DNA of 46,825 bases, from contig JARFRF010000029.1 of the NCBI GenBank assembly GCA_029287395.1, positions 1-46,825 on the forward strand. The letters are read 5' to 3'. Origin of the DNA: Methyloceanibacter sp. Its GTDB lineage: Bacteria > Pseudomonadota > Alphaproteobacteria > Rhizobiales > Methyloligellaceae. The notes under the pieces are model-generated. The model was not told where the DNA came from and searched no databases. It worked only from the letters and a program-made list of their open reading frames with translations. Positions 29,611 through 34,278 of the stretch are shown piece by piece (position 1 is the first letter of the stretch; every line of letters starts with the position of its first letter). A program made the translations under genes and the position numbers.

Positions 29611-30861
29611 CTAAGCCCTCCACGCTGGGAACGGATCAGGGAGGGACTGCCATTCCTCGTCGTTGATGCCCACCTTTCGCGGATTCTTCATGAGGCAGTC
29701 GTTAAGCGCGCTGGTGATGGCCTCCCGGTCCATGGCGATCGTGCCGATGAAGACCAGCTCTTGGCGCCGATCGCCCCAAGTGTCGTCCCAGCGCCTCATG
29801 ACCTCCTTGACGGCATCGTTGTCATCGGGCCAGCGCGACCGCGGCACTGCGGCCCACCAGTAGCCGATGCCTTCGTGCCGGACGAGCGCACCGGCCTGAC
29901 TCAACTCGCCGACCCATTGCGGCCGCGAGGCCAGCCAGAAAAAGCCCTTCGCTCGGATCACGTTTGGCCAGCTCTGGTTGAAGAATGCGTGGAGCAGCTT
30001 TGGATCGAACGGCGCCCGTGCCCGGTATGTGAAGCTCGTGATCCCATACTCCTCGGTTTCGGGCGTATGGTCCTTGAACCCGTTCAACTCTTCGAACCAG
30101 GTTGGGTGAGTCTGTGCAGCTCCGAAGTCGAAGAGACCGGTATCGAGAATCTCATCGAGCGGGACCTTCCCCTCGCTGGTCTCGATTATCTTTGCGCCGC
30201 TATTCAAGGATCGGATGATCGCACGTGCGGCCGCGACCTGTTCCGGCGTCGCGATATCGAGCTTGTTAAGCACAATCACGTCGGCGAACTCGATCTGGTC
30301 AACGAGCAACGAAACGAGCGGGCGCACATCCGTCTCGTCTGCGCCTAGCCCGCGATCGGTCAAAAAATCTTGGGACTGATAGTCACCGACGATGCCAGCC
30401 GCATCGACCACGGTCACCATCGCATCGAGCCGCGTGACGTCCGACAGGCTAGTGCCTTCCTCGTCCCGGAAGTCGAACGTCGTGGCGACCGGCAGCGGTT
30501 CTGAAATGCCAGAGGATTCGATCAGCAGGTAGTCGAAGCGCCCCTCGTCGGCGAGCCGCCGAACCTCGAGCAAGAGGTCTTCCCGGAGCGTACAGCAGAT
30601 GCAGCCGTTCGACATTTCCACAAGGGCTTCGTCCGTGCGCGAGAGGTCGGCGCCGCCTTTTCTCACAAGCTCCGCGTCAACGTTGACTTCGCTCATGTCG
30701 TTTACGATGACCGCTACTTTGCGACCCTCGCGGTTGGAGAGCACACGATTAAGCAAGGTCGTTTTTCCGGCGCCGAGAAACCCGGAAAGGACAATGACGG
30801 GAAGGCGCTTGTCCTTACCCGGCGTGGCACTTTGAAGGTGGTCCATGAGTTGTTTGTCCAT
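29611..30861 (-). CDS. COG0523/CobW-type (ZigA-like) GTP-binding metallochaperone
   Basis: [32 protein letters not shown] (CxCC), IVLNKLDI; Zur-box-like site just upstream and znu genes adjacent. Confidence 0.92.
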
Positions 30862-30870
30862 ATCAAACCC

Positions 30871-30889
30871 AGTTTTATATTATAACATT
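30871..30889 (-). promoter_or_regulatory. Zur-box-like site
   Basis: Minus strand AATGTTATAATATAAAACT, close to the remembered Zur consensus AATGTTATANTATAACATT; 9 bp upstream of the ATG at 30861. Confidence 0.7.
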
Positions 30890-30980: not shown

Positions 30981-32012
30981 TTAGGAGGAAAGCGCCGTGG
31001 TCAGCGTCTTCGCGTTGTACTTGAACATGTCGATATAGGTTGGTGCCGGCCCGTCTGCTTCGGAGAGCGCATCCGAGTAGAGCGTCCCGCCGATCTGAGC
31101 GCCCGATTCTTTCGCGATCTGCTCCAGCATTCTTGCGTTGGCGACGTTCTCTAGAAACACCGCCGGAATCTTGTCCTTCCGGATCTGACGAATAATTTTC
31201 GCAACGTCTTTAGCCGACGGCTCACTCGCCGTGCTTACACCCTTTGGCGCAAGAATTTCCAGCCCGTAAGCATCACCAAAATAGCCAAAGGCGTCATGGC
31301 TCATGATGATCTTACGGTGGGTCTCAGGCAGGGCTGCGAGCGCGGTCTTAACGGCGGCGTCTTCTTTCCTGAGCGCTGCTAAATATTCTTTCGCATTTGC
31401 CTTGTACACCGCTTCGCCCTCGGGGTCCGCGGCGATCAGCCCGTCGCGAATATTCGCCACGTAGATCGCGCCATTCGCAAGGCTCTGCCATGCGTGGGGA
31501 TCCGTAGCGCCGTGACGGTGATGGTGACCTCCGGCATGCTTGTCGCGATCGTGATTGTTATGACCGTGGTCGTCATTAGCGTGTTCTTCCGGAACGGTGT
31601 CATGAAGGTGCTCATCTTCCTCTTCAACCGTCAGAGCCCTCACACCTTTCGTCGCGACGACGGTGCTACCATCGAAGCCGGAAGATGTTTCCAGCCGCTC
31701 CATCCAGCCTTCAAAGCCGAGACCATTAACGAAAAAGATGTCTGCCCTCGCGAGCTTCTTGGCATCAGCTGGCGTTGGGTTGAACTCGTGCGCATCGCCG
31801 TTCGGGCCGACGAGTTCCGTGACCTCGACGCGCTCTCCGCCAACGTTCCGCACCATATCGGCAAGAATGCTGAATGAGGCGACCGCCTTCACCTTGTCAG
31901 CGGCCTCCGCATGAGTGGAAACGCCGAAAGCAAAAGCGGCGGCAGCGAGAACAGGCATCAATCTGATACGCATAGTCTGTTTACTCCGTATCGCAATGGA
32001 TGGAAGAGTCAC
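30981..32012 (-). CDS. znuA: Zinc ABC transporter substrate-binding protein
   Basis: Signal peptide, NPTPADAKKLARADIFFVNGLGFEGW, His/Asp-rich loop HANDDHGHNNHDRDKHAGGHHHRHGATDPHAW. Confidence 0.94.
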   Translation of the reverse strand: MTLPSIAIRSKQTMRIRLMPVLAAAAFAFGVSTHAEAADKVKAVASFSILADMVRNVGGERVEVTELVGPNGDAHEFNPTPADAKKLARADIFFVNGLGFEGWMERLETSSGFDGSTVVATKGVRALTVEEEDEHLHDTVPEEHANDDHGHNNHDRDKHAGGHHHRHGATDPHAWQSLANGAIYVANIRDGLIAADPEGEAVYKANAKEYLAALRKEDAAVKTALAALPETHRKIIMSHDAFGYFGDAYGLEILAPKGVSTASEPSAKDVAKIIRQIRKDKIPAVFLENVANARMLEQIAKESGAQIGGTLYSDALSEADGPAPTYIDMFKYNAKTLTTALSS

Positions 32013-32905
32013 GCTTCAAGGTGTCTGCGCGGTATCAGCCCCCAGAGTGCGCCGCCCCGCACACCCGCGAGCATCGAGAAAAGGTAGAACACACCGCAAG
32101 CCAGAATCACTGTCGGGCCTGTCGGAACGCTGTAGTGATAAGAGACAAGCAGCCCGGCCACGCTTGAGATGAACGCGACAGCGACGGCAAGCATGATCAT
32201 GCCCCCTGCACTGTTGACCCAGAAACGCGAGCTCACTGCGGGAAGCAACATAATGCCGACCGCCATCAACGTGCCAAGCGCTTGGAAGCCAGCCACAAGG
32301 TTGAGCACGACCAACACAAGGAAGATGAGATGCGTCGGCGAACTCCACCGGCTGACGGACCGCAGGAAATGAGGGTCGAAGCACTCCAGGACCAAGGGAC
32401 GATAGATCACAGCCAGTGTGATCAGCGAGACGGTCGCAATACTAGCCACGAGCAGCAATGCAGTATCGTCGACCGCCAAAACCGAACCGAACAGCACATG
32501 GAGTAGATCCACGTTGGTGCCGTGCACAGACACCATGAAAACACCGAGAGCCAACGCGAGAAGGTAAAACCCTGCAAGGCTGGCATCTTCTCGGATAATC
32601 TGAGAGCGCGCGACCAGACCCGCGGCCACAGCGACCGCAAGCCCAGCGGCGAAGCCGCCAAGACTCATGGCGAATAGAGAGAGCCCCGCAAGCAAATAGC
32701 CAATGGCGGCGCCGGGTAGGATCGCGTGGCCCATGGCATCGCCCATCAGACTCATTCGGCGCAGCACCAGAAAGACCCCGATCGGCGGCGCAGTCATAGA
32801 GATTGCAAGAGATCCCACGAGCGCGCGGCGCATGAAGGCAAACTCGGCAAACGGTTCGAGAAGCGTATCGATCATGCGGTCTCGCGCGCCTCGTCGTGCT
32901 CGCAA
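32009..32905 (-). CDS. znuB: Zinc ABC transporter permease
   Basis: LVLRRMSLMGDAMGHAILPGAAIGYLLAG, multiple TMs; overlaps znuA start (ATGA type) and znuC end. Confidence 0.93.
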   Translation of the reverse strand: MRARRGARDRMIDTLLEPFAEFAFMRRALVGSLAISMTAPPIGVFLVLRRMSLMGDAMGHAILPGAAIGYLLAGLSLFAMSLGGFAAGLAVAVAAGLVARSQIIREDASLAGFYLLALALGVFMVSVHGTNVDLLHVLFGSVLAVDDTALLLVASIATVSLITLAVIYRPLVLECFDPHFLRSVSRWSSPTHLIFLVLVVLNLVAGFQALGTLMAVGIMLLPAVSSRFWVNSAGGMIMLAVAVAFISSVAGLLVSYHYSVPTGPTVILACGVFYLFSMLAGVRGGALWGLIPRRHLEA

Positions 32906-33636
32906 ACCGCCGCTTGCTCGTCATAGCCTTCGTGGAACCGACGGGATAGCTCCAGATTGACGGGCGTCAGCACGTCGGGCGTCCGCCCCCACGCCAGCAC
33001 CTTACGCGCTAATAGCAATGTCTCGGGAAAGTATCGGCGCACGACGTCGATGTCGTGTAGGACGGCGACAATCGTGCGACCCTCCGCATGCCAACGCTCG
33101 ATCAGCCCGATGAGGTCGGTAATCGTCCTCGCATCGACGGCCCGGAACGGCTCGTCGAGGAGAATGATCTTGGCATCCTGTAAAAGCAGCCGCGCGAATA
33201 GGACGCGCTGGAACTGTCCGCCCGAAAGGGCCCCGACGGCGCGTCCCGCAAGCTCCGTCAAGTGGACGGCATCAAGCGCGGCGGCGACACGTTCAATGCA
33301 GCCAAGGTCAAGCCCTCCAGAAGCACCGATTTCGTGCCAAAGACCCATGGCGACACAGTCAAACACCGAAATGGGGAAGCTACGGTCGATGTCGACAACT
33401 TGGGGCAGATAGGCGATTTCGCGCTTACCATGCCCGTGGAAGTTAATGCGGCCACTGAGCGGTCTCAACTCCCCAACCATCGCTTTGAGCAGTGTCGACT
33501 TTCCGGCGCCATTCGATCCAACAATGGCGAGAAGCGCACCCTGATGCACGTCGCCCGAAATATGGTGAACCGCCGGATGCCGGTCGTAACCGAGCGTCAG
33601 ATTTTCAAAGCTGATTGCAGGAGACAACGTCTTCAA
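32872..33636 (-). CDS. znuC: Zinc ABC transporter ATP-binding protein
   Basis: GSNGAGKSTLLKAMVG, LSGGQFQRVLFARLLL, LLDEPFRAVD; TTG start preceded by GAGGAGAG. Confidence 0.92.
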   Translation of the reverse strand: MKTLSPAISFENLTLGYDRHPAVHHISGDVHQGALLAIVGSNGAGKSTLLKAMVGELRPLSGRINFHGHGKREIAYLPQVVDIDRSFPISVFDCVAMGLWHEIGASGGLDLGCIERVAAALDAVHLTELAGRAVGALSGGQFQRVLFARLLLQDAKIILLDEPFRAVDARTITDLIGLIERWHAEGRTIVAVLHDIDVVRRYFPETLLLARKVLAWGRTPDVLTPVNLELSRRFHEGYDEQAAVCEHDEARETA

Positions 33637-33646
33637 GAGACTCTCC

Positions 33647-33805
33647 TCACTGCACCGCCCACAAGACCGCTAACCAGAGCACAACTAGTGCCGCCGCAAC
33701 CAGCAAAAGGCGCTGGATCGTTGATGCGCGAAATAGCGAGAAACCTGAGGGGCGCACGTGGACGCGCACGCTCCGTTTCGGCTGCAGCGAACCATCAAGC
33801 AGCAC
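33647..33805 (-). CDS. Candidate small single-TM protein (52 aa) between zur and znuC
   Basis: Hand translation from GTG 33805: MLLDGSLQPKRSVRVHVRPSGFSLFRASTIQRLLLVAAALVVLWLAVLWAVQ*; GGAGAG 9 nt upstream; stop 10 nt before znuC start. Below the ORF-track size cutoff. Confidence 0.6.
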   Translation of the reverse strand: MLLDGSLQPKRSVRVHVRPSGFSLFRASTIQRLLLVAAALVVLWLAVLWAVQ

Positions 33806-33832
33806 GGCCTGATCCTCTCCCTAGCGCGTTCT

Positions 33833-34258
33833 CTAGGACACCGCGGGCCGGCAGGCCTCGCACAATCCAGAGATTTCCAGCGTGACTTGCTCGGGCGCGA
33901 TCTCGGCCGGCGCGAAACCCAAAAGCCGCGATTGTTCCTTACTGTCGAGGTGTATCTCTACGACCTTGTCGCACGCCCTGCAAATGGCGAAGGCGAAGCG
34001 CCCGTCGCATCCGCCGTGACCGCAAGCGATGAAGGCGGAACGCGACTCGAGCCGGTGCACCATGCCCTTTCTCATGAGATCGTTGAGGGCGCGGTAGACC
34101 GTGGGGGGATGCGAAATGCCGACGTTCCGCACATTGTCGAGAATAGCGTAAGCGCTCATCGGCTCGCCCGCCTCGCGCAGACACCCCAAAACCTTGCGCT
34201 GGTTTGGTGAAAGCTTAGTTGCCGAACTGCTGCCCGGGTGATGATGAGCCTTACTCAT
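33833..34258 (-). CDS. zur: Fur-family transcriptional regulator, Zur-type
   Basis: VLGCLREAGEPMSAYAILDNVRNVGISHPPTVYRALNDLMRKGMVHRLES; CGHGGCDG, CRACDKV, LCEAC. ATG 34258 preferred over 34282. Confidence 0.93.
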   Translation of the reverse strand: MSKAHHHPGSSSATKLSPNQRKVLGCLREAGEPMSAYAILDNVRNVGISHPPTVYRALNDLMRKGMVHRLESRSAFIACGHGGCDGRFAFAICRACDKVVEIHLDSKEQSRLLGFAPAEIAPEQVTLEISGLCEACRPAVS

Positions 34259-34263
34259 ACTTG

Positions 34264-34278
34264 TGATATAACATAACG
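34264..34278 (-). promoter_or_regulatory. Degenerate Zur-box-like palindrome between zur and the macro-domain gene
   Basis: Minus strand CGTTATGTTATATCA; 12 of 15 positions fit TGTTATANTATAACA (consensus from memory). Confidence 0.5.

Follow-up and report, generated by a model that had tools for sequence, protein, structure and literature searches.

The small open reading frame (ORF) considered here lies in a zinc-uptake operon on the minus strand of a 46,825-nucleotide stretch of Methyloceanibacter sp. DNA (GCA_029287395.1, contig JARFRF010000029.1, positions 1 to 46,825; hereafter the window). There, zur is followed by the small ORF, then by aztA, aztB and aztC, and then by a COG0523-type GTPase; the features, listed from 5' to 3' along that strand, are as follows.

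34265..34277, minus strand: Zur-box-like site GTTATGTTATATC, 5' of zur
33833..34258, minus strand: zur (FUR family), the gene at the start of the series; Zur is the top NCBIfam match, below its cutoff
33815..33820, minus strand: Shine-Dalgarno-like GGAGAG, 9 nt 5' of GTG 33805, read from the sequence
33647..33805, minus strand: small ORF with a GTG start, gene for a 52-aa small membrane protein, assigned from frame, homologues, kept position, conserved residues and purifying selection
33737..33805, minus strand: N-terminal tail of the small protein (residues 1-23), predicted to be unstructured and cytoplasmic from AlphaFold2 (coil, pLDDT 62-67) and charge bias
33653..33736, minus strand: single helix (residues 24-51), predicted transmembrane (AlphaFold2, pLDDT 93-97)
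33712-33710, minus strand: codon of the invariant Arg32, within the helix
33676-33674, minus strand: codon of the invariant Trp44, within the helix
32872..33636, minus strand: ATPase subunit, AztA/ZniC-like (AztA NF040873, E 1.1e-62, 211 bits vs a cutoff of 220; ZnuC model only 96 bits)
32009..32875, minus strand: permease subunit, AztB-like (AztB NF040871, E 1.4e-75, 254 bits vs a cutoff of 280)
30981..32012, minus strand: substrate-binding protein, AztC-like, with a His/Asp-rich loop (AztC NF040870, E 2e-91, 306 bits vs a cutoff of 350)
29611..30861, minus strand: COG0523-type GTPase, 3' of aztC, family assigned from sequence motifs

The frame opens at GTG 33805, 27 nt past the zur stop (which ends at 33833), closes with a stop ending at 33647 and is translated as MLLDGSLQPKRSVRVHVRPSGFSLFRASTIQRLLLVAAALVVLWLAVLWAVQ, exactly as an earlier sequence-only reading had given it for the space between zur and the ATPase gene. 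An in-frame TAG (33823-33821) sets its 5' limit, and both the GGAGAG and the 10-nt gap to the TTG start of the ATPase gene at 33636 were found where that reading had placed them. The C-terminal transmembrane helix that it proposed agrees with the AlphaFold2 prediction, in which helix 24-51 is of high confidence and tail 1-23 is low-confidence coil; the N-terminal half, described as basic, is so only mildly and contains one histidine. The core carries the motif SLLRxS...RL...LW..V.WAL with its invariant R and W and sits directly upstream of an AztA-type ATPase, and we provisionally describe the product as an AztA-linked small TM protein.

The top NCBIfam matches for the three transporter subunits are AztA, AztB and AztC respectively, and by these profile scores the neighboring transporter resembles AztABC/ZniCBA more than ZnuCBA, so that the znuC label first attached to the ATPase gene had to be given up in favor of AztA/ZniC-like. 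None of the window subunits reached the curated NCBIfam equivalog cutoffs for AztA, AztB and AztC, and we therefore regard them as Azt-like, members of a related group and not AztABC proper; the ATG of aztB overlaps the stop of aztA (ATGA). To the same transporter family belong AztABC(D) of Paracoccus denitrificans and ZniCBA of Klebsiella pneumoniae and Rhizobium leguminosarum, and in Paracoccus and Rhizobium zinc import by these systems is under Zur control (PMC7731109, PMC10797113, PMC12183173). In R. leguminosarum, 153 bp separate zniC from the Zur motif upstream, which leaves room for a small ORF.

The small ORF shares its Zur-box context with the importer genes. Across the window's genus the site at 34265..34277 is conserved, about 540 nt before the core of the small protein, and sequences of the GTTATNNNATAAC form have been published as predicted Zur-binding sites for Caulobacter, for example GTTATATCATAAC (PMC4176598). 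Counting as Zur-box-like any site with at most one mismatch to GTTATNNNATAAC within 700 nt upstream of the core, we found one in 93 of 148 distinct loci, whereas shuffled upstream sequences had one in 0.6% of cases; in Bradyrhizobium, where the site falls just 5' of the small ORF, the operon begins with the small ORF itself. Within the window, a longer zur ORF could start at ATG 34282, where its codons would overlap the Zur-box-like site, and the start at ATG 34258, a few nucleotides past the box, appears likelier from this arrangement. A further site with one mismatch, TTTATATTATAAC on the plus strand (30874-30886), lies just 5' of the COG0523-type GTPase and suggests that this gene is also zinc-regulated, separately and on its own.

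The small ORF is conserved and linked to aztA well beyond the genus, as was found when the search for positional homologues that the earlier reading had proposed was run: homologues precede the same ATPase gene across Pseudomonadota. The 52-aa query matched 15 of 16 other genomes of the window's genus and two outside it, and in seven genomes of the genus the 52-codon frame starts at the matching alignment position, with either GTG or TTG. When 398 genomes of the order were searched with a profile built on the 32-residue core (alignment A2), 151 had a match, and an AztA-type ATPase was found in 177 genomes of the same set. Among the 150 matches listed, 140 precede AztA in the same orientation, at a distance of -1 to 113 nt (median 17). 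Of the remaining ten, eight are in genomes with AztA but had no counterpart among the AztA matches listed, and in three of these (G023, G083 and G086) AztA follows directly downstream; the two in genomes without AztA are weak (E 0.002 and 0.005). By genome, the small ORF and AztA co-occur in 145 of 147 (Fisher p 1.4e-73, a guide only, as the genomes share phylogeny). AztA is likewise directly downstream in 27/27 loci with enough sequence from other orders of the class, where one locus (L089) stops at a contig edge, and in 9/9 loci from other classes of the phylum. When the search was based on AztB, the small ORF was present in 77 of 78 usable loci, which include Bradyrhizobium, Methylobacterium, Microvirga, Rhodopseudomonas and Rhodobacterales as well as the betaproteobacteria Aquitalea and Parazoarcus, and Candidatus Contendobacter. 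Plasmid homologues are sometimes annotated as hypothetical proteins of 43-46 aa (Skermanella WP_203101353.1, Thioclava WP_339115353.1, Paracoccaceae QEW23251.1), and the records of Bartonella sp. HY761 and Neorhizobium, with an incomplete plasmid gene table, carry no gene annotation over the small ORF. The Skermanella plasmid locus (L107) also holds a DUF1826 protein 5' of the small-ORF operon and GTP-binding and WD40-repeat proteins 3' of it, of which the latter may be AztD-like.

The frame is coding and evolves under purifying selection, in keeping with the selection check suggested at the outset. Because synonymous change (pS) is near saturation in the window's genus, where pN/pS is 0.46, we took Bradyrhizobium for a clearer estimate and obtained a pN/pS of 0.22 in frame (15 loci, last 45 codons), while the remaining frames of the same strand gave 1.9 and 2.6; variation in the tail accounts for the only moderate value in the window's genus. 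All 141 distinct ungapped cores have Arg32 and Trp44 (window numbering) without exception, and 127 of them keep Ser23 and 125 keep Ala50. Conservation along the helix has a weak periodicity at 100 degrees (p 0.04), a weak signal of the kind expected of one packing face. The mean net charge is +2.4 before the helix vs +0.2 after it, with the N-side more positive in 130/148 distinct loci, and since positive charge is concentrated before the helix, the positive-inside rule predicts that the N-terminus is in the cytoplasm.

Among the AztA sequences sampled, those without the small ORF fall in one part of the AztA tree. Of 12 AztA genomes inspected after the profile had missed a small ORF in them, six have a divergent one (assigned by eye) and six have none. 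In a quick, midpoint-rooted tree of 95 AztA sequences, the 12 sampled without a small ORF form one clade (SH-aLRT 99), so that presence and absence require a single change, compared to 11.4 on average with shuffled labels. The clade comprises plasmid-borne systems of Paracoccus versutus, Klebsiella, Sinorhizobium chiapasense, Mesorhizobium and Devosia, together with Phyllobacterium endophyticum (loci L108, L109, L111, L115, L118, L172, L199, L201, L202, L205, L208 and L210), and it holds a Paracoccus AztABCD and a Klebsiella Azt system. In Paracoccus versutus and on a Klebsiella plasmid, the region before aztA, unlike that of the window, showed no small ORF. Under the midpoint root, the absence may represent one loss, a direction that hangs on that root. 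AztB of the groups with and without the small ORF differs around positions 67-73 and 162-170, which divergence of the clade alone could explain. Since this clade has working importers of the type studied in Paracoccus (PMC7731109) and Klebsiella (PMC10797113), the small protein is dispensable for zinc transport in general, and it may have been overlooked because the systems studied so far fall where it is lacking.

Neither Pfam nor NCBIfam gave a match near cutoff for the window protein, and nine homologues were also without a match; by these searches the product is a conserved single-helix membrane protein family without a name, outside both collections. Named families of small membrane proteins (AcrZ, KdpF, CydX, MgtS and others) were ruled out, as no profile matched above cutoff, and the lack of any Pfam match for the window protein or the nine homologues also rules out CbtB (PF09489). 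CbtB is a small subunit found beside the cobalt transporter CbtA, with one TM helix and a His-rich stretch after it. The likeness lies in the single helix, the His-rich stretch and a gene beside a metal transporter; unlike in CbtB, the His stretch of the AztA-linked family precedes the helix, and the partner is an ABC importer instead of CbtA.

A literature search, whose scope took in little of the subscription journals and preprints, returned no description of the small protein. The available portions of the Azt/Zni papers describe the ATPase, the permease, the binding protein and sometimes AztD, and a small membrane protein is not among the components named there (PMC7731109, PMC10797113, PMC12183173). 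Small proteins that act on transporters, as covered in the available sections of a review, include AcrZ, MgtS, MgtU, MgtR, MntS and the ABC-associated LucB, and those sections give none for a zinc or other cluster A-I metal ABC importer (PMC10710835). The window protein is like AcrZ, MgtS, MgtU, MgtR and LucB in being a small TM protein paired with a transporter, and LucB, of a lipid-uptake ABC transporter of Mycobacterium tuberculosis, is the nearest ABC precedent in the same sections (PMC10710835). By analogy, such single-helix modulators may be a fair model of how the small protein works, although the conserved motif and the His-rich tail set the AztA-linked family apart from them.

Taken from these patterns of sequence, the probable identity of the ORF product is a dedicated accessory subunit of the AztABC/ZniCBA-type zinc importer that docks to the permease AztB. 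The pairing with AztA and AztB is persistent and near-exclusive over deep divergence, two helix residues never vary, and the tail is optional, all of which fits a helix-docked permease subunit. In the proposed mechanism, the small protein would be made with AztA, AztB and AztC under zinc scarcity and would cross the membrane once, as a helix whose N-terminus faces the cytoplasm. The conserved face of the helix (the Arg32, Ala36, Leu43, Val47 and Ala50 side, with Trp44) would then dock against AztB and either stabilize the AztA2B2 complex or tune its activity, and the His-rich cytoplasmic tail of many lineages could hold zinc at the importer exit or feed back on the importer. We infer that AztB, and not AztA or some separate protein, is the partner, that the small protein modulates the transporter and so affects transport, and that the tail binds zinc where it is His-rich; its role at the permease may be in stability, assembly, activity or zinc feedback via that tail. 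The first suggestion, of a small membrane protein made with ZnuCBA, thus survives insofar as the gene is conserved, is under purifying selection and adjoins an importer, and gives way as to the partner, which is of the AztABC/ZniCBA type.

The tail raises an alternative in which zinc handling comes first and the subunit role second: the His-rich cytoplasmic tail, tethered to the membrane, would act as a buffer or sensor of zinc that either captures the metal as it exits the importer or shuts down the ATPase (trans-inhibition), with the helix only positioning it. At least eight histidines occur within the 60 residues before the core in 54 of 152 distinct homologues, with HxH/HDHAHGH repeats (the counts use the open frame preceding the core, with approximate start sites), and the linkage to a zinc importer gene and the Zur-box-like sites would suit such a role. 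Much expanded HxH-rich tails of highly variable length occur in Nitrobacteraceae and other families (L036, L039, L045, L175 and L181). However, 76 of the 152, the window protein among them, have three or fewer histidines before the core, minimal homologues of 34-38 aa have little beyond the helix, and the invariant residues sit in the helix, and we judge this alternative unlikely. In Methyloceanibacter and several other groups, the tail is short and has few histidines, so the helix would be the core function.

Less probable again, and drawn by analogy, is a turnover or quality-control adaptor comparable to MgtS, MgtU and MgtR, which serve Mg2+ pumps; its helix would shield the permease from a membrane protease, FtsH for example, or deliver the permease to one. 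The small protein matches those proteins in size, in having a single helix and in its setting of metal starvation (PMC10710835), but nothing in our data points to a protease, and such an adaptor overlaps with the stabilizing form of the AztB-docking subunit. The short gaps to aztA and frequent 4-nt or 1-nt overlaps could instead reflect a cis-acting leader or translational coupler, the translation of which merely opens the aztA ribosome site. We regard this as very improbable, and as a sole role it is ruled out by residue conservation and pN/pS: residues are conserved across orders with R and W invariant, pN/pS is well below 1, and the gaps extend to 113 nt, while a pure coupler would not need residue conservation at all. 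Short, GTG-initiated and missed by standard annotation, the ORF might have passed for a chance hydrophobic frame in the zur-aztA spacer, a vanishingly small likelihood that is ruled out because frame, residues and position are all conserved.

The accepted view of high-affinity zinc ABC importers gives them three components, and if the small protein adds a fourth, that view of the Azt/Zni type has been drawn from the one branch without the subunit. A broader reading, which we hold only tentatively and with more doubt than belief, is that a large Pseudomonadota branch of zinc ABC importers is four-part, with an obligate single-helix subunit that in many lineages bears a cytoplasmic His-rich zinc-binding tail coupling zinc arrival to importer activity, and that the studied Azt/Zni systems are a derived branch that lost it. 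A fourth component, if the small protein is one, would offer a case, open to testing, in which a small protein acts on an ABC importer of metal, as well as a way to approach the exit of zinc from the permease on the cytoplasmic side, and it would correct the annotation of an operon of soil, plant-associated and methylotrophic bacteria.
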